Below the pieces are notes generated by a model, which saw only the letters and a list, made by a program, of their open reading frames with translations, was not told the origin of the DNA and did no database searches. This document shows positions 2,829 to 18,272 of a stretch of 64,000 bases of DNA, piece by piece (within the stretch, counting starts at the first letter, position 1; the number at the start of each line of letters is the position of its first letter). The DNA comes from Actinomycetota bacterium (GTDB lineage Bacteria; Actinomycetota; Thermoleophilia; BMS3ABIN01): NCBI GenBank assembly GCA_023382335.1, contig JAMCPM010000008.1:1-64000 (forward strand), in the 5' to 3' direction. The position numbers were made by a program, and so were the translations under genes.

Positions 2829-3149
2829 AGAAAAAATATCTCAATCGTCAGCAGTTCAAGTCTCTTTTGATAACCGGGAAATCCAACTCCGCCTATTCCT
2901 TGCAAAATAACATGGTGAATACTAGACGTTTTACATTTTTCAATATCATATTTCAGCTTGGGGAAAGGGTAAAGTTCGAACCCTGTTTGGTGTCATGATT
3001 TCGCGCAAGAAAAAATGGCTTAACAAAGCCATAAATGAGGGTTCAGAAAGTGGTGGACGTAATCGGCACTTATTCGAACTTACATCTGCTGAATCGGTTA
3101 GTAAAAATAGTTGGGATAATCCTTGCATAATTGATATCTATCGGAGAAA
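2829..3149. other. Non-coding spacer holding recombination-type site A
   Basis: This 321-bp stretch is AT-rich. A 60-codon open frame on the minus strand (2946-3128) shows no ribosome-binding site or recognisable protein character and coincides with the repeated site described separately, so I do not call it a gene. The remainder is the probable 5' region of the HEPN-like pair and the 3' region of the small membrane-protein gene. Confidence 0.5.
2971..3081. repeat. Site A: attachment-site-like repeat
   Basis: This segment begins AAAGTTCGAACCC. After 81 bp it continues GGTGGACGTAATCGG, and 20 bp after that it has ATTCGAAC. The same boxes at the same spacings occur at 5132-5243. A small hairpin (ATGGCTT/AAGCCAT) lies between the boxes. 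A shorter relative covers the 3' end of the serine recombinase gene near 18245. The site separates the HEPN block from the AbiE block, as expected for the border of an inserted segment. Confidence 0.5.
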
Positions 3150-3509
3150 TCACGGCCCACCGCTCAACGTGTAAATCAAGATATTTCCATCTTTTTGCTT
3201 TAAGAAAAGAAGTGTAGGTGTGCCATGGGGTCCCGGTGTTTCATATACTTCCAGTCTGTTCACTATTATCGGTCCCAGGGCTTCTCCCGTTGGCGCAGAT
3301 TGATTGATGTAATCCAGAAGAGCCTGTGGCTGATTTTTACCTTGGCGCTTGCCAAGGTAATAACGCCTGCCGTGGTATTCAACCCTGTCCGGAGGATCAA
3401 AGGGGTTAAAGATGCCGAAGCTCACCCGGACGTAACCCAAATAGGCAATCGTCACAATAGCAAGAGCTGCCACACAGGCCGAGATAAGTACAATTATCTT
3501 TTTCACCAA
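3150..3509 (-). CDS. Small membrane-anchored hypothetical protein
   Basis: This 119-residue protein has one strongly hydrophobic N-terminal segment (about residues 4-27, preceded by Lys-Lys). It is either a signal anchor or an uncleaved signal sequence, leaving a roughly 90-residue outer domain. The outer domain has a Tyr/Arg/Gly-rich start (residues 44-56) and a C-terminal beta-rich part. No family is recognised. It lies 19 bp downstream of the AbiEii-like gene on the same strand and may belong to that cargo block, bounded by sites A and B. Nothing in it indicates a toxin or immunity function. Confidence 0.55.
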   Translation of the reverse strand: MVKKIIVLISACVAALAIVTIAYLGYVRVSFGIFNPFDPPDRVEYHGRRYYLGKRQGKNQPQALLDYINQSAPTGEALGPIIVNRLEVYETPGPHGTPTLLFLKQKDGNILIYTLSGGP

Positions 3510-3528
3510 GATTTATCCTCATCTTGAT

Positions 3529-4284
3529 TCATAATATCTCCAACAAAGGCTCAACATTTGATTTCAGTGTTTTTGTACCAATTTCTTCCCTGTAATACAA
3601 ACTCTCAGCGCCGGAGCTTTTTGCTTCCTCGGCAATTTCAAGATTTTCAAGGATAGATTCTTTGCTCAGAGGTTTTCGAAGTTCTTTCTGTTTCAGGATT
3701 TCCAAAATCTCTTTAGGCGCAAAACCATTCTTCTTCATCATCATTGCCAGATCATAGAAATCCCGATACCTAGCTCTTTCGTTAACGGCTCTGACTTTCT
3801 CGGCGCAGATTTCTTTGGCTGTCATAGCGGAAACGGTTACCGGCACCCCATAAACGTTTTTATATTCTGCCTTCTTTGCAGGAAGGATCAGCTCTTGGGT
3901 CAGATCGACATCAAGTTTAATAGAATTTGGCTGTTCCAAGGGACCCGAGAACTTCAGCCTTTGAATCTTCAGAGTGAAATCCGACTGATAGCTTTTTAGA
4001 ATATCCAGAAAATCGTACGGCTCAATAACTTCCCTCAAGTCATCTTCAGTAATTTTGTCGGTGGTCTGGAAATCCAAATCTTCGGAAAACCTCAGCTGGT
4101 CAAGATAAATATGATGGATGGCAGTACCGCCTTTGAAGACCAGTGAGTCCTTGAGCTTTGAACTGTAGATAATTTGTAGGACAATCGCCAGGAAATAGTC
4201 TTTCTCGGCAATCGCCAGCGGATAGCGAAAGCTATTTTTATTGAAAATGGAAAGCTGGGCCCTATTTAGTAAATCGTTCTTCAT
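3529..4284 (-). CDS. AbiEii/AbiGii-type nucleotidyltransferase (toxin of AbiE system)
   Basis: About 251 residues from the ATG at 4284, chosen because GGAGG lies 7 bases upstream. A TTG at 4305 in the same frame is a longer alternative. The nucleotidyltransferase signature is plain: FKGGTAIHHIY followed by RFSEDLDF, giving the GG(T/S) loop and the metal-binding Asp pair, and later YRDFYDLAMM. AbiEii proteins are DNA polymerase beta-fold enzymes; characterised relatives nucleotidylate RNA targets and stop growth during phage infection. The start overlaps the upstream AbiEi-like gene by 23 bp, so antitoxin and toxin are translationally coupled. Fold and pairing are secure; the actual substrate is not known. 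Confidence 0.88.
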   Translation of the reverse strand: MKNDLLNRAQLSIFNKNSFRYPLAIAEKDYFLAIVLQIIYSSKLKDSLVFKGGTAIHHIYLDQLRFSEDLDFQTTDKITEDDLREVIEPYDFLDILKSYQSDFTLKIQRLKFSGPLEQPNSIKLDVDLTQELILPAKKAEYKNVYGVPVTVSAMTAKEICAEKVRAVNERARYRDFYDLAMMMKKNGFAPKEILEILKQKELRKPLSKESILENLEIAEEAKSSGAESLYYREEIGTKTLKSNVEPLLEIL

Positions 4285-5032
4285 AGTAGAGCCTCCACTT
4301 GGCATTAAATATATTTGATTTTTTTGTCAGCTTCGCAAAACCGGGGGTTCCTTTGAGATTCTTATGAAGCCCCTCGGATTCAATCCCTGCAAGACCAAAC
4401 AGGAATCCCAGACGCCGCCTCAGAGTTATAGGATAAGTTTTTGCAAGATCAGTTATTTTGGCAACATCAATTTCATTTTTGGCTTCTTGAAACTTTTCAA
4501 CTAAAAGGTCAACTGTGTAGCCATCTCTTCGGAAATGAAGGAAATCCAGCAGGGCTTTTTCAAGATCGGCAACTCGGGCGCTCTGTCCTTCAATTGTTAT
4601 CTCCTTGAATCCTTTCATCATTTCGAACTTAGCTTTGACAAATAGATATTCTGTGTTCTGAAATTCATAGCGCTTAGTATTTGAGGTTGTAACTGAAGTG
4701 ACCTTTGCGGGCAACTGGTCAAAGTGGCCGTGGTAATTCAAGGCATATTCGAAAGAAACGTATGAGTCTGCGACAAGCACCTGCGCGATAGCTAGCGGGG
4801 AAATATTGGAAAAACTATGCGATTCCAAATTCGCGATGGCAAAATAACCTCTTTTAATTCGGATCAGCCAACCGTTCCTAACCATTTTGCCGACCAAGTT
4901 CCTCGACGCTTGCTGGCTTATTCCAAGCTTGGCTTCGATTTGTCTGGAAGTAACGATATAGCCATAATCCGAAATAAGGCTTTCCAGCAAGTAAAGCTCT
5001 TTTTCTGACAAAATTGTCTTTTTCATATCCAT
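4262..5032 (-). CDS. AbiEi-like antitoxin / transcriptional repressor
   Basis: This 256-residue protein has an N-terminal winged helix-turn-helix (residues about 10-60, including TSRQIEAKLGISQQASRNLV). The C-terminal AbiEi-type domain contains SFEYALNYHG, a beta-rich middle and an ALLDFLHFRRDGY segment. Type IV AbiE antitoxins repress their own promoter through the winged helix and neutralise the nucleotidyltransferase indirectly. The upstream inverted repeat at 5033-5057 is well placed as its operator. The gene precedes and overlaps the toxin gene, the standard abiEi-abiEii order. No obvious Shine-Dalgarno sequence is seen before the ATG at 5032; an in-frame ATG at 5026 is a second possibility. 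Confidence 0.85.
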   Translation of the reverse strand: MDMKKTILSEKELYLLESLISDYGYIVTSRQIEAKLGISQQASRNLVGKMVRNGWLIRIKRGYFAIANLESHSFSNISPLAIAQVLVADSYVSFEYALNYHGHFDQLPAKVTSVTTSNTKRYEFQNTEYLFVKAKFEMMKGFKEITIEGQSARVADLEKALLDFLHFRRDGYTVDLLVEKFQEAKNEIDVAKITDLAKTYPITLRRRLGFLFGLAGIESEGLHKNLKGTPGFAKLTKKSNIFNAKWRLYYEERFTK

Positions 5033-5057
5033 ATAATACTCTGTTTGGGGGTATTAT
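5033..5057 (-). promoter_or_regulatory. Perfect 7-bp inverted repeat at the abiE promoter (candidate operator)
   Basis: ATAATAC at 5033-5039 and GTATTAT at 5051-5057 form a perfect inverted repeat with an 11-bp spacer directly before the AbiEi start codon. AbiEi proteins are known to bind inverted repeats in their own promoters for negative autoregulation. Position and symmetry fit that role; binding is inferred. Confidence 0.55.
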
Positions 5058-5131
5058 CCTGTAACAATTAAGACAGATTAGAAATAGTCTTGCAAGCGCT
5101 TTATCTGTGAAAAAGCCTGCCAATTAGAGGG

Positions 5132-5243
5132 AAAGTTCGAACCCGAACCACTGTTTACGTTATTGCAAATCAAAAAATGCCTCTTTGCAGGCATTTTTTA
5201 AGTACTGATCTTGGTGGACCTTACCGGTAGCTATTCGAACCTA
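5132..5243. repeat. Site B: attachment-site-like repeat
   Basis: AAAGTTCGAACCC at the left and TTGGTGGACCTTAC starting at 5212 are followed by ATTCGAAC at 5233. The distances between boxes are identical to those of site A. The 14-base core TTGGTGGACCTTAC is identical to the core at the end of the recombinase gene (18244-18257). A strong terminator hairpin sits in the middle. The site marks the border between the AbiE block and the restriction-modification block. Confidence 0.55.
5172..5199 (-). terminator. Rho-independent terminator downstream of the mod-res operon
   Basis: AAAAAATGCCT, a 6-base loop and AGGCATTTTTT form a perfect 11-bp palindromic stem with A/T tracts on both sides, so it could work in either direction. 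Read on the minus strand it ends in six T residues about 110 bp after the stop of the restriction subunit gene. Confidence 0.8.
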
Positions 5244-5311
5244 TTAATCCTGGTACAGCTTGAAAAAGCGGTAAACAGGCTCTTGGTAGCTTAAAAAATC
5301 ATCCAGAATAT

Positions 5312-8260
5312 TTAGTTCACAATCTTTTCTGCAAAATCCGGGAAGTTATCAAACCAATATCTCCTATAGCTCTCCGGTACACTGGCAATGCCACTTTTAG
5401 GCTTGAGAAGTAATTTTGCCTCAACACTAAATCCGTTGTATTTGTGTGTTTTACTTTTTTGGCCTTTTTCAATTTCGAATATCTTCGAAAAACCATCAAT
5501 CTTTCTGAATGCATCTGTATGCTCTGTCCCTTTAGGGTCTACAAACAAGATTGTATATTTGTCGCCTTTTTTCATCCAAAATATGAAATCAGGCATGAAT
5601 TGAGCAATCCTATTGTCTTTGGGGTTGTAATACGGAATGAAAACTTTATCCAACGTTTGATCGAGCTTGGAGAATAACCACCAATCATAATTTTCAAAAA
5701 TATTACCATCGACCTGCAAATACTCTTCCAGTTGTTCTATAAATTTAACTTCACTTTCCACATCTATAACGTGATTTATAAAATCAACTTTTTCATTTTC
5801 TGAAATAATTAATGGGATGTAGTAATGATTTTTAATGTAGTTAATTTTTAGTTTTTTCCCATTACATTCGAAACTTTGGTTGTCTTTTATTGCTTGAGCC
5901 TTTTTCAGCATTTCTTCAAATGAAAGCTCTTTTGCGTCAAAGGCTTTCTTTAATGCTTCCTCCTTTTTGGGAAGTTGCTTTACTTCCTTAATTTTTCGCA
6001 GAATCTGATCAAATTTTTCCTCACCTTTGAATTTAATTTTTCTGAAATGAACTATCTCATTTTCGAGTATTTGATAGCTATCAAATTCTTCATCTCTCAC
6101 ACTTAAGTAATCAAGAATTCTATCAAGCAATAATTCCGGGTCAGCTAAGATTCTTTTTTCAGTGTCGTCGTAATATTTAGCTGATTCTTTCAGACTTTTA
6201 CTAATAGTTTTTATTACTTTTACATCACACTCGTATTTAGCCATAGAAATTTTTTCACCGAGATAATCAAATAGCTTCTTAGTTAAAATTAAATCTTCCT
6301 TGTTTACACTGAACTTCTGGGGCGTTTGCTCTTCTGCAAAAATTTTCTTTGAACTTTTATATTTTGGGATCAAAAGGATTTTATCTAAAGCATCCTGATT
6401 TACGATAAATTCCTGACCTAAATCTTTTTCTTGTTTCTCTTCCTTGAGTGCCTTAATTATTTCTTTCAGATTCTCCGCATTGGTACCAAAAACGAAAAGA
6501 CTTTCTAATGGCAAAATATAGTTCTTAACTTTCTCAAATACTCTCTTATCAACTTCTTGTGCATTCAGTAAATTTGTTAGTCTCTTCCTTTTGTCCTTTT
6601 CAGGCTCAATACGTACACCACGACCAACGGATTGAAGCACAAATTTTTTCGAATCACTGCCTACACCAATATTTACGAATAACAAAATGTTCGGTCTACT
6701 AGAATCCCATCCTTCGTAAAAAGCTCTTGAACCCATAAGTAGATTTATTTCAGAATCATCATCATTGATTTTGTGGAAAATACTCTCGTTTTCAAAGCTT
6801 TCAATAATCTCATATCCGCTAAGCTTTTCTTTAAGCCATCCTGAAATGTCACCGATCTTAATTAGTCCAAATGGTTTATCACTAGTCTTCAACTTAAAAA
6901 TTATCTCTTGCGTATTGCCTGGTATCTTTAAAACTTCAATATTGCCCGGGGTTTTTGAATTGAACACCTGCTTTAAAATGTCCCCGTATTCAATCTTGTT
7001 TAAAAGTCCTTTATTTAATGAGACTGATAGGTCACTTTCAAAAAGATAATCGCGTTGTCCATTAACCATTTCCTCAATTAATTCTTCCTTTGCTTCATTA
7101 AACAGGCTTTCCTTAATTTCGTTTTTTGCTATCTTTTCAACTTCTGAAAAAAATAGCTTTAAATCAGCTTCCTTAGTGTCAACTGAATTGACCAGTGTTA
7201 AGAGGAGAGGGCGGTGGTATAGAGATTTGTCTACCCTTCTTACCTTATCGAAGAACTTTAAAATATATGTCTGTAATAAAAGAGTCTTTAAGACGACTTT
7301 TTGCTTGGCAGCTTTTGAAAAGTCATCCTTATCCTTGAATGCAGTGACTTCCTGATCCGACACATAAATATGTTTTCCATAACCATCTTCAACATATTTT
7401 GAGAGGTTGAAGTCGAAAACACATGTGGCAAAATCGCGCGGATCGGTAAACGTGGCTGAAAAATTAAACAAGAAACCATTTCTTGAAAGAATCGAGTATA
7501 GGACCTGCCTCTTACTGTCTTCCTTGTCTCCCTTATGTGCTTCGTCTAATAATATGTACCAATTACCGCTATTATCGTAATTCTTATAATCAACGATTTT
7601 CTCCGTATCAACGTCAGAAATTAAATCTGAGCGATAGTAAAATATTGTGATTTCATTTTTGAAGAATGGTATTACATTGTCTCGTTTAACATTTTCATAG
7701 TCTTTCAGGCTCTTTAAGTTAATCTTCGTTTCTGTATTAGTTTTATTAAATTCTTCAATATGTTTCCTGAACTGCTCCAGTAGATCATCTCTGTGAGCTA
7801 AAAATAAAATATCATTCTGTGGTATTTCATTATCCTGGCTAAGCTTTCCGAGTAATTCGATTAATTTCACAATTATCAGAGTTTTTCCTGATCCTGTCGC
7901 CATCCAAAAACTCATTCTATTTAGAAATGATTCAAACGATATCTTTTTATCCTTAACAGGATAATCTTCGCTGTATTCGAGCAGATACTGAGCAGCTTTC
8001 TTTCCTTCCTTTTTTTCTAAAACATAATCTAAGTTACCCTCGTAACCGTTGGAAATATATTGATCCAGCAGTAATGCTTTATCAGAATTATTTTCACGAT
8101 AGTAAAATGAAAGCCCTTTGGCCGCATTTCTTAATGCCCTGCTTTGAAATTCAAATAAGGTTTTTTTCTCCGAAAAACTTGAATAATCAAAGCCCTGCCA
8201 TTTTGGAGGTAGGCTTTCAAAGGGGATATCTTCAACTATGGATTGTAAATATAGCTTCAA
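5312..8260 (-). CDS. Type III restriction-modification Res subunit (helicase-nuclease)
   Basis: This 982-residue SF2 translocase/endonuclease subunit has Walker A (ATGSGKT, 121-127), a DEAH box (LLDEAHKGD, about 245), a SAT motif (FSATFTD) and motif VI (QSVGRGVRIEPE, near 540). A C-terminal PD-(D/E)xK nuclease follows, with PDF at about 890 and VDPKG at 907-911. Type III Res subunits hydrolyse ATP to move or switch along DNA and cut when two unmethylated sites face each other; they need Mod for recognition. The gene begins 1 bp after the mod stop, so it is the second gene of a tight operon that ends at the terminator at 5172-5199. Length and domain order are normal for the family. Strong A+T bias contrasts with the backbone. 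Confidence 0.9.
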   Translation of the reverse strand: MKLYLQSIVEDIPFESLPPKWQGFDYSSFSEKKTLFEFQSRALRNAAKGLSFYYRENNSDKALLLDQYISNGYEGNLDYVLEKKEGKKAAQYLLEYSEDYPVKDKKISFESFLNRMSFWMATGSGKTLIIVKLIELLGKLSQDNEIPQNDILFLAHRDDLLEQFRKHIEEFNKTNTETKINLKSLKDYENVKRDNVIPFFKNEITIFYYRSDLISDVDTEKIVDYKNYDNSGNWYILLDEAHKGDKEDSKRQVLYSILSRNGFLFNFSATFTDPRDFATCVFDFNLSKYVEDGYGKHIYVSDQEVTAFKDKDDFSKAAKQKVVLKTLLLQTYILKFFDKVRRVDKSLYHRPLLLTLVNSVDTKEADLKLFFSEVEKIAKNEIKESLFNEAKEELIEEMVNGQRDYLFESDLSVSLNKGLLNKIEYGDILKQVFNSKTPGNIEVLKIPGNTQEIIFKLKTSDKPFGLIKIGDISGWLKEKLSGYEIIESFENESIFHKINDDDSEINLLMGSRAFYEGWDSSRPNILLFVNIGVGSDSKKFVLQSVGRGVRIEPEKDKRKRLTNLLNAQEVDKRVFEKVKNYILPLESLFVFGTNAENLKEIIKALKEEKQEKDLGQEFIVNQDALDKILLIPKYKSSKKIFAEEQTPQKFSVNKEDLILTKKLFDYLGEKISMAKYECDVKVIKTISKSLKESAKYYDDTEKRILADPELLLDRILDYLSVRDEEFDSYQILENEIVHFRKIKFKGEEKFDQILRKIKEVKQLPKKEEALKKAFDAKELSFEEMLKKAQAIKDNQSFECNGKKLKINYIKNHYYIPLIISENEKVDFINHVIDVESEVKFIEQLEEYLQVDGNIFENYDWWLFSKLDQTLDKVFIPYYNPKDNRIAQFMPDFIFWMKKGDKYTILFVDPKGTEHTDAFRKIDGFSKIFEIEKGQKSKTHKYNGFSVEAKLLLKPKSGIASVPESYRRYWFDNFPDFAEKIVN

Positions 8261-8261
8261 A

Positions 8262-10700
8262 TTACCACCAGATTAAAGGCTTTATTTTCTTGTAGTCCAA
8301 TTCGCTAATATCTATCTCAGAACCATCATCAAACTCAGTCTTTTTGCCGTCTATGTGCTTTATCATTCTTCCCGACAAATTAGAAAGACTTTCGGCAATA
8401 TCAATGTCTGGATACAACTTTGACAAGTCTACAACTGCGCGATTTTTCTTCTCATCAACTTCCATAGCGGCAAGCATTTTTTCATCCTTCATAAAAACGT
8501 ACTCGTTGTATGGGGATCTACCAGGTACGTTAAATAAGTCGCAGTCCTCATATTTGCAATTGTCTAACGCTTCCTCATACTGTTCGAGTTCATAGTATTT
8601 GAAGAATCCGCCACCCTGCCAACCAACATCTTTGGTCAAATGAGGTCTTCTATCTGATTCCAGACACGAAATATTTCTATCGCCATTAAGAACCCACTTC
8701 ATTCTACCTTTCACACCTAGTCGCTGCCCTTTTTCTGTTTCATATATTTCTTCAAAATGGTCGCCCATTTCAATGCCAATCCACTTTCTACCTAATTTGT
8801 GAGCAACTGCTGTTGTTGTACCTATTCCTAAAAAGTAATCCATAACAATTTGATCTTTTTCTGTTGTGGATTGAATGATTCGCCTCAACAGGTTTTCCGG
8901 TTTTTGTGAAGAGGTAAAGCTGAAACTTTCACTAACTCTCATTTCTGATTGTGTGAAGGAAAAGATGTCGTTCCAAATGTCTCCTACTGGAAATAATTTC
9001 TCTCCTTCTGGGATTTCAACTTTTTCAAGTTCCAAGGAACCGTCATTCCACTTTTCAATCTTATATTCGAAATCAGCTATCTTTTTTGGGGCTACTTTTT
9101 TCGGAAATGCTATTAGGTCCAGCCAACCGATGTTTAAATTAGTTGTATTTCTGTTTGGCTTCCATAATTTCCGAAATAGATATTTGTCGTTGCGACAGTA
9201 AAATAAAGTTTGGTGTTTAAGTTGAAAATTATCACCAAAACTTTTGTACCCGAACAAATCTGCTTCCTCATCCTTTGTAGCGTTCGTGTCAAATATTATC
9301 TCTGTAAGTTGAGAGAATTTACCTTTTATAAGCTCCTTGCCATAATCATTTGCATTGTCATCTAAATGAAGCCAAAAACTTCCATCGCTATTCAAAAACT
9401 CAAAGCCGGCACTTAATCTGTCATTCATTAAACTCAACCAGCTGGAATCTTTAAACTTATCGAGATAAGGAAAATCATCCCCCGTATTAAATGGTGGATC
9501 GATGTATATTGATTGAATCTTTCCTTGGAACTTTGGAAGAATGGTCTGTAGGGCTTGGTAGTTTTCACTCTTAATAAGCCAGCCATCTAATTGATTGTCT
9601 AAATCGTTGAAGAGGGACAGTATTTCATTTTCAAGTGCTTTAAAATGCTTTGTATCTATTGGTAAGTGAGCGAATTTCTTCTCTATCTTTTTTTCTTTAG
9701 AGCCACTTTTAAAAATATCGCTAGCTTTGAACTTCTTATCTGCAATTCCCAGAGCTTGCCATTCTTTTATTTGATCTTTCATCCCCCCTGCTTTTAAAAT
9801 TTTGTTTACAACCGCCAGGTCGCCGATCCTGTCGAGCGTAATAACATAATTGCTATTGCGAACAAACTTTGGTTTATTCCAGACTCTTACCAACTCTTCT
9901 TCAAACTGACTTATAAAATCAATGGTCTTAAAAGCAATATCTTTGAGAACCTGTAATTCATTAATTCTATCTTTTGACCAATCGTTTGCACCCACCCAAA
10001 AGTATTGATAACTCCATAGCTTAAACTGTTCTTTCAAAAAAGCGTTCGCATTCTTGTTGATAAAATAATCCACTTGCGACTGTCGATTAAATATCTTAAA
10101 CGCCTTAAGAAGTTGCTCTTCAGATATGCGAATCTTTTTCTTCTTCAGCTCTTTTAGAATTACATCATGTTTCGTTTTTGCACCACCCTTTGAATAATTC
10201 ACCGCAAAAACTATTACTCCATCTGTCCTAATATTTTTTAAGTCGAACACTAGTGATCGCTTCTCATTGGCTCTTTTGCCCTGCATGGTGGACGCATCGA
10301 AGAATAGCTTTAGGTCATCGAATTCAATTGGGAGGCTCCGAAATATATTGTCCGTTTTGACATAGAAGAGCATGTGCGTTTTCCAAAAAAGAATTACATC
10401 TTGCTCATTCGTATACACCTTTTCGTAAACATTGTTATGGAATGGTGTGGAATTAAAAAGGATTGAACCGCTCTCAGAGAAATACCGGCTGAAGAAGGAA
10501 AATAATTTATCAAATAGTTCCTCCCGAAAAGCAGGATATTTTTTTACCGTTTTATCAATATCTGCCTTTAATAGTTTTTCAATTTGCGAATAATATCGGG
10601 ACTTTATCCGCATCAGATTTATGAACCCACCCTCACCTTCAATCTTCACTCCAACAAATACTTCTTGAAGGGCTTTAAAAAAATTCTCTTCTTTGGTCAT
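8262..10700 (-). CDS. Type III restriction-modification Mod subunit (DNA methyltransferase)
   Basis: This 812-residue N6-adenine/N4-cytosine methyltransferase is of the beta arrangement. The catalytic DPPFNTG is at 401-407 and comes before the S-adenosylmethionine motif DYFLGIGTTT at 621-630. The stretch between them should hold the target-recognition region, and WNDIFSFTQSE fits the Mod-type segment before motif I. Mod provides sequence recognition and protective methylation and partners Res immediately downstream. The protein is odd in carrying about 350 residues before the methyltransferase core, longer than in classical Mod proteins (DPPY usually near residue 120). The start at 10700 has a GAGGAT ribosome-binding site 3-4 bases upstream. 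Confidence 0.88.
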   Translation of the reverse strand: MTKEENFFKALQEVFVGVKIEGEGGFINLMRIKSRYYSQIEKLLKADIDKTVKKYPAFREELFDKLFSFFSRYFSESGSILFNSTPFHNNVYEKVYTNEQDVILFWKTHMLFYVKTDNIFRSLPIEFDDLKLFFDASTMQGKRANEKRSLVFDLKNIRTDGVIVFAVNYSKGGAKTKHDVILKELKKKKIRISEEQLLKAFKIFNRQSQVDYFINKNANAFLKEQFKLWSYQYFWVGANDWSKDRINELQVLKDIAFKTIDFISQFEEELVRVWNKPKFVRNSNYVITLDRIGDLAVVNKILKAGGMKDQIKEWQALGIADKKFKASDIFKSGSKEKKIEKKFAHLPIDTKHFKALENEILSLFNDLDNQLDGWLIKSENYQALQTILPKFQGKIQSIYIDPPFNTGDDFPYLDKFKDSSWLSLMNDRLSAGFEFLNSDGSFWLHLDDNANDYGKELIKGKFSQLTEIIFDTNATKDEEADLFGYKSFGDNFQLKHQTLFYCRNDKYLFRKLWKPNRNTTNLNIGWLDLIAFPKKVAPKKIADFEYKIEKWNDGSLELEKVEIPEGEKLFPVGDIWNDIFSFTQSEMRVSESFSFTSSQKPENLLRRIIQSTTEKDQIVMDYFLGIGTTTAVAHKLGRKWIGIEMGDHFEEIYETEKGQRLGVKGRMKWVLNGDRNISCLESDRRPHLTKDVGWQGGGFFKYYELEQYEEALDNCKYEDCDLFNVPGRSPYNEYVFMKDEKMLAAMEVDEKKNRAVVDLSKLYPDIDIAESLSNLSGRMIKHIDGKKTEFDDGSEIDISELDYKKIKPLIWW

Positions 10701-11533: not shown

Positions 11534-12921
11534 TCTAGGAAGCTATAGGGCTCGTCCTGCTCGGCGGCAATTGGATCAGGGAATGTGACAACTTCTGAAT
11601 CGGGAAAAGTAACTTCTTCGTCCAGTTTGGCTAAGCTGATTGTTCTTCCTGATTCCTTATTAAGTCGTCTAAGCGTTGCCAGATTCTGTTCCAGTCGCCA
11701 GCTTTCTTCCAAATCGAAGGTTCGGAATGTCATATGATCTTTGCCCTTCGTTTTTAGAATGGCGACCTGAGTTGGAAGGCCGATTAGTTCGCTTATGCCT
11801 TCCTCCCTCTGCTCGTCCTTCGTGAAATAGGTATATGAGTCCTCGTTTCTGAGCTTCCAATCATATGGGTCGTAATCTTTGATGTACTTCACGATCAGTT
11901 CAGCGTCCTGCCTGTCGCATCTGTAAATAACAAAGTTCTTTGCGTTGCCGAGGATGATATCTCGTAATTGCTGGTCGAGCTGAACAAGACTCTGATGTGC
12001 CAGGACAAGGGATAGGCCGTATTTCCTGGCTTCGCTCATGATCTCCGCAAAACTCAACGTTGCGTAGTTCTGAAACTCGTCCACATATAGATAAAATGGC
12101 TTCCTGGCTGACGGCGGTAAATCAACTCTCGACATTGCTGCCATTTGGATTTTGGCCACGAATAGAGCTCCAAGAAGAAAGCTGTTTGTTCTCAATACTC
12201 CCTTAGCCAGATTTATGAGGACCACTTTCTCTTCATCCATAATCTGCCTGAAATCAATCGTTGATTTCTTGGCTGAGAGCATGAGACGGATTCTTGGATC
12301 GCTTGTAAATGAGGAAACTTTGTTGAGTGTAGATTCGATGTTCGATATTCTCTCTTTCTCATTCCACTTCTCATATCTGTTGTGCCAGAAGGAATCGACG
12401 GCCTCATAAGTCACGTGCTTCATTTTTTCTTTGCGGAACTGTTCATTTGTGAGAAGCGGTTCGATGTCGAGCATCGTTCCGCCCGCTTCGATGAGGGTCA
12501 AAACAGCATTCCGCAATATCTCGATCAGCCTGGGTGTCTTGTCATCTGAGAGGTTCCAGATTTTCCTGAAAACCTCGATGAGCTCCAAGGTCTGGGTGTA
12601 CGGGTCGATTCCTTCTTGCTGTTCGAGAGGGTTGAAACCAATGATGTTGTCGGGGTCGGTCATTTCGACCAGGGTGACGTTTCGAAAGTCGTCAAGATTT
12701 CCAACTATGTCATTCACTAAATCGCCGTGAGGATCAATAACCCCACATCCATTGCCGTTCATGATATCGCCGAGTATCCAGGTCGCCAGACCCTTTGACT
12801 TGCCAACACCTGAACTACCAAGCACATAGACGTGTGTAGATCTGTCCTCTTCGGGCAAATAAAAACCGACGACCTCGTCGGCATCGTCATAGGTCATACC
12901 AATTTTCAGAGCTGAATCCAT
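11530..12921 (-). CDS. VirD4/TraG-like DNA-transfer ATPase (type IV coupling protein family)
   Basis: This 463-residue FtsK/HerA-superfamily ATPase has Walker A GSSGVGKS at 35-42, a downstream IDPHGDL motif and Walker B FYLYVDEFQNYAT near 275. A sensor-like segment (LVLAHQSLVQLD) follows soon after. The DPHGD and DEFQ(N) motifs are typical of TraD/TraG-type coupling proteins, which dock relaxase-DNA at a secretion channel. No N-terminal membrane helices are present, as in many coupling-type ATPases of small integrative elements. No relaxase or other secretion genes are obvious in the window, so the element may be mobilised rather than self-conjugating. The gene lies downstream of the excisionase-like gene in the minus-strand element operon. 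Confidence 0.75.
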   Translation of the reverse strand: MDSALKIGMTYDDADEVVGFYLPEEDRSTHVYVLGSSGVGKSKGLATWILGDIMNGNGCGVIDPHGDLVNDIVGNLDDFRNVTLVEMTDPDNIIGFNPLEQQEGIDPYTQTLELIEVFRKIWNLSDDKTPRLIEILRNAVLTLIEAGGTMLDIEPLLTNEQFRKEKMKHVTYEAVDSFWHNRYEKWNEKERISNIESTLNKVSSFTSDPRIRLMLSAKKSTIDFRQIMDEEKVVLINLAKGVLRTNSFLLGALFVAKIQMAAMSRVDLPPSARKPFYLYVDEFQNYATLSFAEIMSEARKYGLSLVLAHQSLVQLDQQLRDIILGNAKNFVIYRCDRQDAELIVKYIKDYDPYDWKLRNEDSYTYFTKDEQREEGISELIGLPTQVAILKTKGKDHMTFRTFDLEESWRLEQNLATLRRLNKESGRTISLAKLDEEVTFPDSEVVTFPDPIAAEQDEPYSFLD

Positions 12922-14364: not shown

Positions 14365-14407
14365 AAAAAGAGCCTTGTCCTTTTGGGATCTAACTCCGAA
14401 GGCTCTT
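14365..14407 (-). terminator. Terminator after the replication-relaxation gene
   Basis: On the minus strand AAGAGCCTT, a 22-base loop, AAGGCTCTT and then further T residues (five in a row in all) lie 12 bp after the stop of the replication-relaxation gene. The stem is perfect over 9 bp; the large loop lowers confidence. Confidence 0.6.
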
Positions 14408-14418
14408 GCCCTGGCGGG

Positions 14419-15258
14419 CTATTCCAACAAAGAAGTTGGTGAATCTGTGAAGGGAGAAAGCCATATGCTTCCTAGGGGGCTTTTTCTCTGAATCTCTGAG
14501 AAGGTCGTAAACAGAAACATCTGCCTCCCCCCAGCTTTCCCTGTCGCCTGAATCAAATTGACCAGGCGTCTTTCACTTTCCGCGACCGTCAGGACGCGAA
14601 AGTGATTAAAACCGTATTCCTCTGTGTACTGTCGTGATTTCCAATATCTTTTGTAAGCTGTCACCTTCTCAGCGAACCGCGACAGCGTTTCCGTTCCCAT
14701 ATCTACTTCCAAGAAGAAGATATGTTTGCCTCTCCCGCTCTGTATTCCAAAGAATGCGTCAGGTGCGACGACGAAATACTTCTTCTTGGCTCCCGTTACG
14801 GAAATCCGGCGCAGGTGCGATTTGTCGCCCCGCTGATAGAAAAAGATCTCTTCCGGTCTTCCAGCAAGCGCGATATCAAGACAAACCTTGAACTCCGAAA
14901 CCCCGAGCGTGTGATCCATGAACAGCCATTCAACGCGGTTGCTGGCGCGGTTCCATCTAATCTTGTGGCGATCCACTTCAAGCGAAGTCGCCACAATGTC
15001 AGCCCCACGCTTGTCGAGGGCGTAAACTGCCTGTGCGATGACGGAAGTTGCCGGACGCTCAAGGCGATCCACAAATTGGTGCTCGTTGAGTTTCTTGAGG
15101 CGCATATTGCATGCCACCAATGAAGCGTTGGGGAAAAAGAGCCGCTGGATCTGGTCGCGCTTCAAAAACCGGTTCTCGTAAACGCTCAGGATTATGGATA
15201 CATCCCGAGTAGTAAGAACCATTGGCGATATTCGATTGTTCTCTCTTTTTCTTGTCAT
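14419..15258 (-). CDS. Replication-relaxation family protein
   Basis: This 279-residue protein has an N-terminal winged helix-turn-helix (about residues 14-75, with RDVSIILSVYENRFLKRDQI and a wing) and a C-terminal domain with WLFMDHTLGVSEFKV, PDAFFGI and FFLEVDMGTETLSRF. The latter contains the E/D-x-D and metal-ligand-like residues expected of a restriction-endonuclease-like fold. The layout matches the replication-relaxation family (PF13814), found on plasmids and integrative elements and presumed to act at replication or transfer origins. The 190-nt inverted-repeat structure (15275-15465) lies 16 bp in front of its start, so that structure is either its mRNA leader or its DNA target. Confidence 0.75.
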   Translation of the reverse strand: MTRKRENNRISPMVLTTRDVSIILSVYENRFLKRDQIQRLFFPNASLVACNMRLKKLNEHQFVDRLERPATSVIAQAVYALDKRGADIVATSLEVDRHKIRWNRASNRVEWLFMDHTLGVSEFKVCLDIALAGRPEEIFFYQRGDKSHLRRISVTGAKKKYFVVAPDAFFGIQSGRGKHIFFLEVDMGTETLSRFAEKVTAYKRYWKSRQYTEEYGFNHFRVLTVAESERRLVNLIQATGKAGGRQMFLFTTFSEIQRKSPLGSIWLSPFTDSPTSLLE

Positions 15259-15274
15259 TGGTTTTCGTGTTTTT

Positions 15275-15465
15275 CACCAGGGGAAATTAAGCGACCGAAG
15301 GAAGCGCCGTCTGGCTGTAAGCCAGACTTCCCGCGCCTCGACGTAGTGAACCCGTAGGGCGAGGGGCGGGAAGTCGGGCTTCGTTTCGACCTACAAACGA
15401 AGACAGACGGCGCAGGATTGAAGTGGGCTAAATGCCCCGCAAATCCTGTTAATTTCCCCCTGGTG
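15275..15465. ncRNA. Large multi-stem structured element (RNA or DNA origin)
   Basis: A closing stem pairs CACCAGGGGAAATTAA (15275-15290) with 15449-15465, with one bulged base. Inside, GCGCCGTCTG (15304-15313) pairs with 15404-15413, GACTTCCCGC (15325-15334) with 15366-15375 and then CCTCG (15336-15340) with 15360-15364. CTTCGTTT (15379-15386) folds on 15395-15402, and AGGATT (15414-15419) pairs with 15442-15447 around a GGGC/GCCC hairpin. An alternative hairpin GTCTGGC-tgtaa-GCCAGAC (15309-15327) competes with the second stem. The fold is nested and nearly saturates the segment, which is much richer in GC than its surroundings. It lies between two minus-strand genes. It could be a 5' leader RNA, a stand-alone RNA, or a hairpin origin (oriT or replication) recognised by the adjacent protein. 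I know no named family matching it. Confidence 0.6.
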
Positions 15466-15487
15466 GTTTTAATGTTTTCAAGGTTTT

Positions 15488-15536
15488 GGGTCTTATAATT
15501 GGGTCTTACAGCGGTTGTAAGTATCAATGTAAGACC
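15488..15536. repeat. Iteron-like CTTAYA boxes
   Basis: GGGTCTTATA (15488) and GGGTCTTACA (15501) are direct repeats 13 bp apart, followed by TTGTAAG (15515) and ATGTAAGACC (15527) in the opposite orientation. The outer pair GGTCTTACA/TGTAAGACC is a perfect inverted repeat. Regular spacing of about one helical turn and closeness to the structured element suggest a replication or regulator binding cluster. Confidence 0.45.
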
Positions 15537-15691
15537 TATTGGGTGGGTTTAGGCGCTGTATCTGCCGCTTTCAGGGCTTCTCTTTCTTTGTCGAGCATCT
15601 CCTCGGCCGCATCCAAAAAGGCGGTCACCAGCTTATCCAGCTGGCGCTTGACCCTCTCAGGATCGATCTTTTTGGGATAGACCTCGATCAT
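15536..15691 (-). CDS. Small acidic/basic helical protein, 51 residues
   Basis: The frame runs from the ATG at 15691 to TAG at 15536-15538, with GGAGAGG 5-6 bases before the start. The product begins MIEVYPKKIDPERVKRQLDK and continues as one long amphipathic helix (roughly residues 11-43, rich in Glu, Lys and Ala) ending in a Pro/Thr tail. It has protein-like composition and a good ribosome-binding site. No family is recognised. It is the upstream neighbour of the structured element and the replication-relaxation gene and is divergent from the XRE regulator, so it may be an early element gene. Confidence 0.6.
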   Translation of the reverse strand: MIEVYPKKIDPERVKRQLDKLVTAFLDAAEEMLDKEREALKAADTAPKPTQ

Positions 15692-15862: not shown

Positions 15863-15891
15863 TTGCCAGAGTTCTGTTTCTGTTCTATATT
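15863..15891 (+). promoter_or_regulatory. Sigma-70-type promoter of the XRE-ImmA-recombinase operon
   Basis: TTGCCA (15863-15868), a 17-bp spacer and TATATT (15886-15891) lie 28 bp before the XRE start. A TTTTCCACA segment resembling a DnaA box lies about 30 bp upstream. Spacing and sequence are close to consensus. Confidence 0.65.
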
Positions 15892-15919: not shown

Positions 15920-16279
15920 ATGGCCAAACATTTTGGCGACAAATTAAGACAATTGAGGCATGAGCGGGGCATCGGCCAGGAGCAGATACGGGAAGCTCTG
16001 GGCTATAAGACGAACAGCTACATCTCGGATGCCGAGCGAGGCAAGTTCATTCCCCAGGGCGACAAGCTCTACAAATGGGGCGAAGTCCTCGGACTCTCCC
16101 CCGAGCAAATGGACGACCTCCTTTTGGAATACAAGCTTGAGGCATTGGGATTGGATGATCCTGCGTTCACGCTGATGTTCAAAGAAGTCCCGAACATGAC
16201 CCGCGAGGAAAAGCAGTCTTTAATCAGGTCGTTTGAGAACGTCATTCATTCCCGAACGCCCAGAAAGAAACGATCATGA
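15920..16279 (+). CDS. XRE-family transcriptional regulator
   Basis: This 119-residue protein has an N-terminal five-helix HTH_3 domain (residues about 6-62; KLRQLRHERGIGQEQIREAL then YISDAERGKFIPQGDKLYKW). The C-terminal helical tail probably serves oligomerisation or contact with the peptidase-like partner. AAGGA lies about 10 bases upstream of the ATG. Its last 4 bp overlap the ImmA/IrrE-like gene. In ICE-type elements an ImmR-like repressor holds excision and transfer genes silent and an ImmA metalloprotease cleaves it after DNA damage. The gene pair and its position between the divergent operons fit that logic. Confidence 0.85.
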   Translation: MAKHFGDKLRQLRHERGIGQEQIREALGYKTNSYISDAERGKFIPQGDKLYKWGEVLGLSPEQMDDLLLEYKLEALGLDDPAFTLMFKEVPNMTREEKQSLIRSFENVIHSRTPRKKRS

Positions 16280-16746
16280 AGCGAGTAATCGACAGAGCCA
16301 ATCATATACACGAAAACTACGGGACCGATCTAGACAGAATTGCAGACGGTCTTGGTCTTTCTGTTATCTACGATGACAAGCTAACGGGGAGAATGCGGGA
16401 GTACTACTTTCGGGGCTCAATTGTGATCCGTCAGGATTTGTCCGTTCGGGAAAAGCGGGAGCTAGTAGCTCACGCAGTCGGACACCATCTGTTTCATGCC
16501 GGCAACCATCTCGCCATGCAGAAGCGGATTTACTCCTTCGGCAACTACCATGAGAAGCAGGCTAACGTCTTCGCCGCCTGTCTGCTCATTCCACTTTCTT
16601 CGCTTTTGCGACTGATGGCTGACAAGGCGCGCCTAGATGAGATCGCCGAACACTTTCAGGTCCGCGAGGAACTGGTTCGGCTACGGCTCAAAGTCTGGGC
16701 TAATTTCGAAAAAGGGTTAAGCGGCAGCAGCGCCAGGGTGGGTTAA
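16276..16746 (+). CDS. ImmA/IrrE-family metallopeptidase-like protein lacking the catalytic Glu
   Basis: This 156-residue protein has the IrrE/ImmA core. The expected HExxH reads HAVGH at 66-70, in VAHAVGHHLFHAGN, so both zinc-binding His residues are kept but the general-base Glu is Ala. The downstream third-ligand region EKQANVFAACLLIP (about 95-108) is intact. Family members cleave an XRE repressor (ImmR, DdrO). Without the Glu, classical hydrolysis is doubtful, so it may act as a zinc-bound sensor or anti-repressor, or be inactive. It is translationally coupled to the XRE gene by a 4-bp overlap and is followed 3 bp later by the recombinase. Confidence 0.8.
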   Translation: MKRVIDRANHIHENYGTDLDRIADGLGLSVIYDDKLTGRMREYYFRGSIVIRQDLSVREKRELVAHAVGHHLFHAGNHLAMQKRIYSFGNYHEKQANVFAACLLIPLSSLLRLMADKARLDEIAEHFQVREELVRLRLKVWANFEKGLSGSSARVG

Positions 16747-16748
16747 AA

Positions 16749-18272
16749 ATGAACTGTGTTATTTATCTCCGAGTATCAACCAAAGAACAAGCTCAAAGGG
16801 CTGATAGCAATGAGGGCTATTCTATCCCTGCCCAAAGAGAAGCGTGCGTCAAATATATCGAGGAAAAGGGCTGGAAGCTTATTGATGAGTACACCGACCG
16901 GGGCGAATCGGCCAGGTCGAAAGACCGACCACAGCTTCAAGAAATGCTCTCAAGAATCAAGAAAGAAAAAGATGTTCAGGTAGTCGTCGTTCACAAGATC
17001 GACCGGCTCGCCCGGAACATGGAAGATCACATCACTATCAAAGCGATTCTCAAACGGGCCGGAACCGTCCTGGAATCTGTCATGGAGAATATTGAAGATT
17101 CTGCCTCTGGCAACTTGGTTGAGGGTATTCACGCTCTCATGGCTGAATTCTATTCCGCAAATCTCGCTACTGAAGTAAAAAAAGGGATGGCAGAGAAAGC
17201 CAAGCGGGGCGGTTGGCCGTTTAAGGCCCCCGTTGGCTATAAAAATGAAAGAAAGGGTTTCAGGAAAAACAGCATTTCCAAAATCGTAGTAGATCCCGAA
17301 ACTGCTCCTCATATCAAAGAAGCTTTTCAGCTGTATGGCACTGGCAATTACTCTACTCACGATATTCGAGAATTCCTGGTTCAAAGGGGCGTTACTAATC
17401 GGAGAGGCGGTAATAATCCGATGGCTCTTTCCAGCGTCAATGCTCTTCTCTTGAACCCTATTTATATTGGTCTTATCCCGTGGAAAGGTGTTAATTACCC
17501 GGGAAACCACGAGGCGCTGATTGACGAAGATACTTTCGAGAAGGTTCAGGAAGTGATGAACGTTCACAATGTTGCCGGTGAACGCACACGCAAACATCCC
17601 CACTATCTTAAAGGCACGCTTTATTGTGGGGAATGTGGTTCAAGAATGTCTGTCGATGTCGCCAAGAAAAAATATGTCTATTTCTACTGTGTAGGCCAGA
17701 AAAAGAAGTTCACAAAATGCAAAGAGCTATATGTGAACACAGTGGATATCGAATATCGTGAGTAGAGTAATTGAGAGAATATCCAGCTGACCCAGGATCA
17801 AATTGAAAAGATAAAAAAAGATTTCAATGAGAAGCTGATTGGCCGTCAGTCAAACAACGCTATGGAAGAACAATTCCTTGGCAAGAGAATCACCAAACTG
17901 GCTGATGAAAAGCTGAAACTGATGAAAGCGTATTATGCCGGAGCAATCGAGCTGGACGTTCTCAAAGCAGAGCAAGACAGGATTTCGGCTGAAATGAAGT
18001 CCTCAGAGAAACGGCTAAAAACGATAAGGGGCGGTCTGGATCAATACAGAGTGATTCTAGATAAGGCGGCGCACCTGGCTTCCCACTGTGCCGAGGCTTA
18101 TAAACAATGCAAACCCAAAACAAAAAGGCTCTTTAACCAAGCCTTCTTTGAAAAGCTCTACGTGAAGGATCGTAAGATTTATAAGGTTGAATATACCGAC
18201 TTATTCGGAGCCCTATTCGACGAAAGTTCGAATAAGGATGATTTGGTGGACCTTACGGGGTTCGAACCTTGA
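16749..18272 (+). pseudogene. Large serine recombinase, interrupted by two in-frame stops
   Basis: The first part (338 residues, 16749-17765) has the resolvase domain with nucleophile Ser10 in YLRVSTKEQA, the conserved VHKIDRLARN and the recombinase domain. A zinc ribbon follows (YCGECGSRM and two later Cys). TAG at 17763 and TGA at 17772 then break the frame. The same frame continues from 17775 with ENIQLTQDQIEKIK and a coiled coil to 18272, giving about 505 codons in total, normal for the family. Reading one base over through the gap gives VSRVIERI, so a pair of compensating indels is as likely as nonsense changes. The C-terminus (DLVDLTGFEP) is encoded by the attachment-like site C. The element may be locked in place unless the first fragment is active or the gap is an assembly error. 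Confidence 0.8.
18223..18272. repeat. Site C: recombinase-end attachment-like site and right border of the island
   Basis: AAAGTTCGAA (18223), then TTGGTGGACCTTAC (18244-18257) and GGTTCGAACC (18259-18268). The core is identical to site B; the spacer is 59 bp shorter than in sites A and B. Its complement looks like the T-loop and acceptor 3' end of a tRNA (GGTTCGAACC to GGTCCACCA), but no full cloverleaf follows. GC-rich backbone genes begin just beyond. Confidence 0.55.

Follow-up and report, generated by a model that had tools for sequence, protein, structure and literature searches.

The window is a stretch of 64,000 nucleotides from an Actinomycetota bacterium and carries an integrated element in which a structured segment lies between a relaxase gene on the minus strand and a plus-strand module of regulator, peptidase and recombinase genes (Table 1). 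The relaxase gene starts 17 nt left of the structure. The coupling ATPase was the only secretion gene found in the examined part of the element. The recombinase gene of the window copy is broken and an intact tRNA is absent, whereas the serine recombinase is unbroken in L078, an element from a different genome with 99% identity. Cargo at 3529-10700 of the window included an AbiE-type pair (an AbiEi_4 protein and a probable AbiEii partner) as well as a ResIII helicase and an N6/N4 methylase, which are type III restriction-like.

Table 1. Genes and structural features of the window element. Paired segments are separated by a slash.
Feature	Position	Strand	Support
TraG/TraD/VirD4-like coupling ATPase, 463 aa	11530..12921	-	
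MOBC-type relaxase, PF13814 Replic_Relax, 279 aa; predicted winged helix and PD-(D/E)XK-like nuclease domain	14419..15258	-	
Structured element, candidate oriT: closing, main and distal stems, two side hairpins	15274..15466	+	Folding z, covariation in 23 copies, covariance model matches
Closing stem, 16 bp, one bulge	15274-15289/15450-15466	+	Helix 1: 99.5% of cells paired; two-sided changes in 3 pairs
Small weak hairpin	15291-15305	+	
Main stem, 10 bp	15306-15316/15401-15411	+	Helix 3 of covariation analysis
Competing hairpin GTCTGGCT-GTA-AGCCAGAC, perfect 8-bp stem	15309..15327	+	98.4% of cells paired; two-sided changes in 2 pairs
Distal hairpin, 24 bp, interrupted	15320-15348/15353-15380	+	Helix 4: 8 pairs with two-sided changes
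Side hairpin TCGTTT..AAACGA	15381-15386/15395-15400	+	Helix 5
Side hairpin GCAGGATT..AATCCTGT	15412-15419/15442-15449	+	Helices 6 and 7 (including inner hairpin)
Inner hairpin GGGC TAAAT GCCC within 15412..15449	15423-15428/15434-15438	+	
T-rich linker, conserved, right of structure	15467..15485	+	
Adjacent variable-stem hairpin, X..X..X'..X' pattern, GGGTCTTAC..GTAAG..GTAAGACC	15486..15535	+	
XRE-type regulator, constant neighbour	15920..16279	+	
ImmA/IrrE-like peptidase, Peptidase_M78	16276..16746	+	
Large serine recombinase gene, in-frame stops in window copy	16749..18272	+	

The relaxase matched the Replic_Relax profile (PF13814) with an E value of 3.3e-31 and a score of 109 bits, above the cut-off of 25.3. 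PF13814 represents the MobC relaxases in CONJscan (PMC5357655), and MOBC relaxases are described as restriction-nuclease-like (PMC5714925). Residues H116, P166-D167, E184, D186, K198 and Y202 are invariant. A structure model of the protein had a pLDDT of 87.7, and Foldseek produced weak matches to XisH (2okf), AddB and EcoO109I, all with E values above 0.001. The model weakly suggests a winged helix and a PD-(D/E)XK-type nuclease region, which agrees with the restriction-nuclease-like nature of MOBC relaxases.

Fold, covariation and distribution of the structure

Folding of 15274-15466 gave a minimum free energy of -104.8 kcal/mol on the plus strand (z -7.3) and -97.5 kcal/mol on the minus strand (z -7.6), and 0 of 200 shuffles were as good on either strand. 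Folding as single-stranded DNA with DNA parameters, over 15272-15540 and thus including the adjacent hairpin, produced z values of -10.2 (plus) and -8.5 (minus). In a scan over 10.9-18.4 kb the segment was the sole strong outlier (z -5.8, runner-up -3.7). The multi-stem structure proposed here by a sequence-only reading was recovered by refolding with its coordinates and stems, among them the 16-bp closing stem and the 10-bp main stem, and it also stood clear of the shuffled controls. Its GC content exceeds that of the element core, as had been noted (0.59 vs 0.48), and is below that of a stretch of host chromosome (0.63), so that the enrichment is relative to the element alone. Scans of Rfam 15 at gathering and permissive thresholds placed the structure in no family and returned only sub-threshold chance matches to microRNA models, and a nucleotide search of plasmids and phages gave no match.

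The competing hairpin, which the same reading had described as an alternative to one of the stems, is itself conserved. It is mutually exclusive with the main stem and with the base of the distal stem. When it is formed, the right-hand hairpin can be extended in the register i+j=295, in which 139 of 184 cells were paired. The pairings with and without this hairpin are two isomers of a four-way junction, and we infer that the structure switches between the two hairpin sets.

The structure was present at six places in the source genome, five of them found by nucleotide search and one (C15:116872) added by a covariance model. This model, R1, was built from 12 copies and searched against 399 genomes of the class. 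Matches were obtained in nine genomes, all within the source genome's family of 19 genomes; the family consists of uncultured Thermoleophilia/Gaiellales/Actinomycetes MAGs. In 23 model-aligned copies, 97.7% of cells formed standard pairs compared to 90.3% in shuffles, and 23 of 64 pairs showed two-sided changes compared to 14.0 in shuffles. These are the compensatory changes that had been named as support for the fold, and the covariation is strong, with a score of 0.233 against 0.101 in shuffles. The observed pairing and number of two-sided changes were reached by 0 of 500 shuffles. The alignment was fitted to the structure and the counts therefore lean towards it, and many of the changes split just two groups of copies, which means fewer independent events than cells. 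Shifting the pair partners by 1-3 columns decreased pairing to 35-55%. Wobble pairs comprised 42 GT (21 without one invariant pair) vs 7 AC, a mild preference for folding of the plus strand.

The structure is a repeat that splits short-read assemblies, so copies are hidden and absence is uncertain. In one genome the end of contig G005:C55 (L073) and the start of contig G005:C76 (L177) both break within the structure, and L177 starts inside it. The copy on G013:C24 (L070, 6790-7083) has a tandem internal duplication inside the structure.

Conservation extends past the structure to about 15535 and includes the second conserved hairpin at 15486-15535. Units of the form X..GGGT..X..X'..AGGCA..X' were found there, in L007 at about 9053-9330 and in the right flanks of L065, L066 and L009. 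The segment X differs between units, including units of a single element, and the frame around it stays constant. In addition, relaxase-less elements carry arrays of several X..X..X'..X' hairpin units.

Element classes, integration and linkage to the relaxase

Two classes of element carry the structure. Class A has the order coupling protein, RadC, DUF6908, relaxase (minus strand), structure (plus strand), XRE regulator, optional IrrE-like gene and recombinase. Class B has no relaxase, is about 3 kb long and consists of the structure, optional VapBC or other cargo, XRE regulator and recombinase, ending at tRNA-Pro. On the left side of class B, homology towards the flank usually ends about 10 nt before the closing stem and the structure is usually the leftmost feature. 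In the relaxase-less element L007 the segment lies at 8845-9051. A class B-like copy with additional genes on the left side (L008) and two copies with internal deletions (L060 and L009) were also found. The XRE-recombinase module is linked to the structure as consistently as the relaxase is. The contents of class B together with these three copies argue that the structure is neither only a relaxase leader nor only a part of attP.

The serine recombinase genes lie next to the 3' ends of tRNA-Pro (L007, L061-L065, L068), tRNA-Met (L071, L077), tRNA-Val (L070) or tmRNA (L072, L074). Their coding sequences extend into the target's 3' end and yield C-termini such as GFEPPTSRSRTVRSTRLSHTP that are read antisense through the tRNA. 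For attL of the window element, the attR segment was not repeated anywhere in the window, and the empty-site comparison for one small element returned no informative empty site. With an integrase, a relaxase and site-specific integration, the family has these features of integrative mobilizable elements. Co-occurrence of relaxase-less with relaxase-bearing elements gave a Fisher p of 0.003. This value was discounted because relaxase-less-type recombinases also occur in genomes lacking the relaxase, and because the structure coincides with many contig breaks.

All close relaxase homologues examined that have an assembled upstream region carry the structure within a few tens of nucleotides of the relaxase start, with one exception, a genome with a broken relaxase gene that shows no structure. 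At L092 the relaxase is 47% identical over its length and the XRE, IrrE-like and recombinase genes are arranged as in the window; at the same position the model matched with an E value of 2e-8, giving the same fold in mostly different sequence (folding z -3.8). The cargo of L092 at 2933-4318 encodes an ApeA/HEPN protein. A 35-nt inverted repeat lies directly upstream of the relaxase in L094 (34% identical), and upstream of the relaxase in L093 (36% identical) no structure beyond shuffles was found. Besides its PF13814 relaxase, the L094 element has SSB and coupling ATPase genes; its contig is binned as a Thermoplasmata archaeon and could be mis-binned bacterial DNA. At most of the distant PF13814 loci scanned, the sequence directly upstream was not strongly structured. 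A structured oriT next to the relaxase is therefore no general feature, and the proposal that PF13814 loci carry such a structure directly upstream was not supported.

Four distant PF13814 loci share another conserved structured element, GCAGACCCCTTATCGTAAA..TATCGAGGGGTCCGCT, downstream of the relaxase (L099 at about 7498-7640, L101, L112 at about 2640-2780 and L116 at about 7430-7580), with a compensated pair change in L116. The hosts are Desulfocarbo, Phycisphaerae and Desulfobacteraceae, and Rfam gave no match for the copies in L099, L112 and L116. This element is possibly another type of MOBC oriT.

The structure as a candidate oriT

The 190-nt structure is probably the oriT core of an integrative mobilizable element family, used by the PF13814/MOBC-type relaxase. 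A relaxase gene lies nearby, and the structure has inverted repeats in an extrudable fold, as is looked for in an oriT. An oriT is the simplest account since it covers the location beside the relaxase, the persistence in relaxase-less elements, the covariation across divergent sequence and the MOBC precedent described below. The equally consistent tie to the XRE-recombinase module and the weakly structured upstream regions of most distant PF13814 loci count against it. The sequence-only reading had offered a leader RNA, a stand-alone RNA and a DNA origin in hairpin form that the neighbouring protein processes. This third option fits best, the neighbour being a PF13814 relaxase, and a leader RNA of the relaxase is insufficient.

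In the putative mechanism, the relaxase would bind the extruded structure, which has two exclusive hairpin sets at the four-way junction, the main and distal stems or the competing hairpin with the extended right-hand hairpin. Binding may shift the hairpin set and thereby expose the nick site. The relaxase would then nick one strand within or beside the structure, and the VirD4-like coupling protein, together with a type IV secretion channel that is borrowed, would take over the nicked strand. On elements without a relaxase, a resident relaxase could act in trans.

An unlikely alternative is that the structure is a single-strand origin or single-stranded DNA promoter (sso, ssi or Frpo-like) that works only after transfer, with the oriT elsewhere. 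The entering strand would fold, and RNA polymerase or a primase would start the complementary strand or early expression there. The structure does fold very well as single-stranded DNA and sits between the relaxase and XRE-recombinase genes, and the second structured region of pAM373 (z -9.25), near leading-region-like genes, shows that such elements can lie near MOBC relaxases. However, a search with the sigma-70 consensus found no -35/-10 pair inside 15274-15466, the plus-strand pair being at 15863-15891, and Frpo is a hairpin that imitates a double-stranded promoter, unlike the multi-branch junction and conserved competing hairpin seen here. On this explanation, no other segment in the z-scan would stand out as a strong oriT candidate of the element. 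A single-strand site could serve as oriT as well.

Equally improbable is a structured RNA, either the minus-strand 5' leader of the relaxase or a plus-strand RNA, leader or stand-alone, from the XRE-recombinase operon or the element. Regulatory RNAs typically show strong covariation and an alternative hairpin that is conserved, a minus-strand promoter-like site at 15825-15796 could drive transcription through the structure into the relaxase gene, and the wobble pairs favour folding of the plus strand. The same wobble bias speaks mildly against a minus-strand RNA, there is no Rfam match, and control of the relaxase is not enough to explain a structure that is kept in relaxase-less elements. Most of these elements have only about 10 nt left of the structure, which leaves no room for an element-encoded plus-strand promoter. 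That they carry the structure at the left end favours a DNA site acting in cis over a leader RNA.

Finally, an accessory site for the serine recombinase or XRE regulator that controls integration or excision and not transfer is very unlikely: the structure-XRE-recombinase module is constant in both classes and the structure abuts the left end of the small elements, but such a role would not explain why it is so tightly linked to the start of the relaxase. In the large elements, about 2.8 kb separate the structure from the attachment site on the recombinase side, and on its other side it lies inside the element, which excludes it from attP in that class. Attachment sites of large serine recombinases are about 50 bp.

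The oriT reading can be carried further, and more tentatively, to an undescribed family of branch-migrating multi-branch oriTs. It is conceivable, though rather doubtful, that MOBC-type relaxases read DNA shape at a two-isomer four-way junction and that minimal relaxase-less elements (structure, XRE regulator and recombinase) parasitise larger ones via the shared structure.

Few oriTs of MOBC relaxases have been characterised in any depth, and oriT sites are difficult to spot in genome sequence. With a covarying structure, oriTs can be found by covariance search, not by sequence, and such a search reveals small elements without transfer genes that otherwise resemble isolated recombinases. If the switching is true, the ability of a relaxase to drive a hairpin switch, which the unrelated MobM is known to have, would extend to a relaxase with a restriction-enzyme-like fold.

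Comparison with known transfer systems

The Enterococcus pheromone plasmids pAM373 and pAD1 (relaxases Orf8/TraX) resemble the islands in having MOBC relaxases. pAM373 is MOBC by PLSDB typing with a PF13814 relaxase. CloDF13 was left out of the comparison because the PLSDB gene table lists no PF13814 relaxase for it. In pAM373, nested perfect inverted repeats of 18 and 25 bp span 14392-14533 (142 bp, z -14) and are accompanied by 12-nt direct repeats at 14551-14625, the whole segment lying between the relaxase and coupling-protein genes. This segment is reportedly the mapped oriT (Francia & Clewell 2002). Both systems have large nested inverted repeats of ~140 bp near the relaxase and a coupling-protein gene close by, and the layout, for which the sequence-only reading could name no RNA or oriT family, has a precedent in pAM373 even though Rfam was empty. 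Unlike the multi-branch junction with a competing hairpin in the islands, pAM373 has one long nested hairpin with direct repeats, and no sequence similarity was noticed. Inverted repeats in the oriTs of pAD1 and pAM373 are also described in PMC5587640.

pAM373 (L117) has a further very stable extended hairpin at 12095-12512, the second structured region mentioned above, flanked by the relaxase side and by genes for an AcrIIA9-family protein, a PcfJ-domain protein and SSB. It is a candidate single-strand origin or single-stranded DNA promoter of a MOBC plasmid. Frpo promoters are folded single-stranded DNA (PMC11541004). Frpo and ssi sites share with the island structure the folding when single-stranded and the location near relaxase genes, whereas the island structure is branched and has no promoter hexamers inside.

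At the oriT of pMV158, MobM (MOBV1) uncovers the nick site by converting one hairpin into another (PMC5863519). The mutually exclusive hairpins next to the relaxase gene are common to both systems; the relaxase family and fold differ, the pMV158 structure is much smaller and there is no homology, so the likeness is one of mechanism only.

Among chromosomal elements, two streptococcal IMEs have the same protein-family trio as the window element, a serine integrase, a MobC relaxase and a VirD4-like protein. They belong to another phylum, and no structured oriT is described for them in the available parts of PMC5357655 and PMC5704250. In concept, the islands correspond to the iMOB and iOriT hitchers (PMC11389934), the large relaxase-bearing elements to iMOB and the relaxase-less ones to iOriT.
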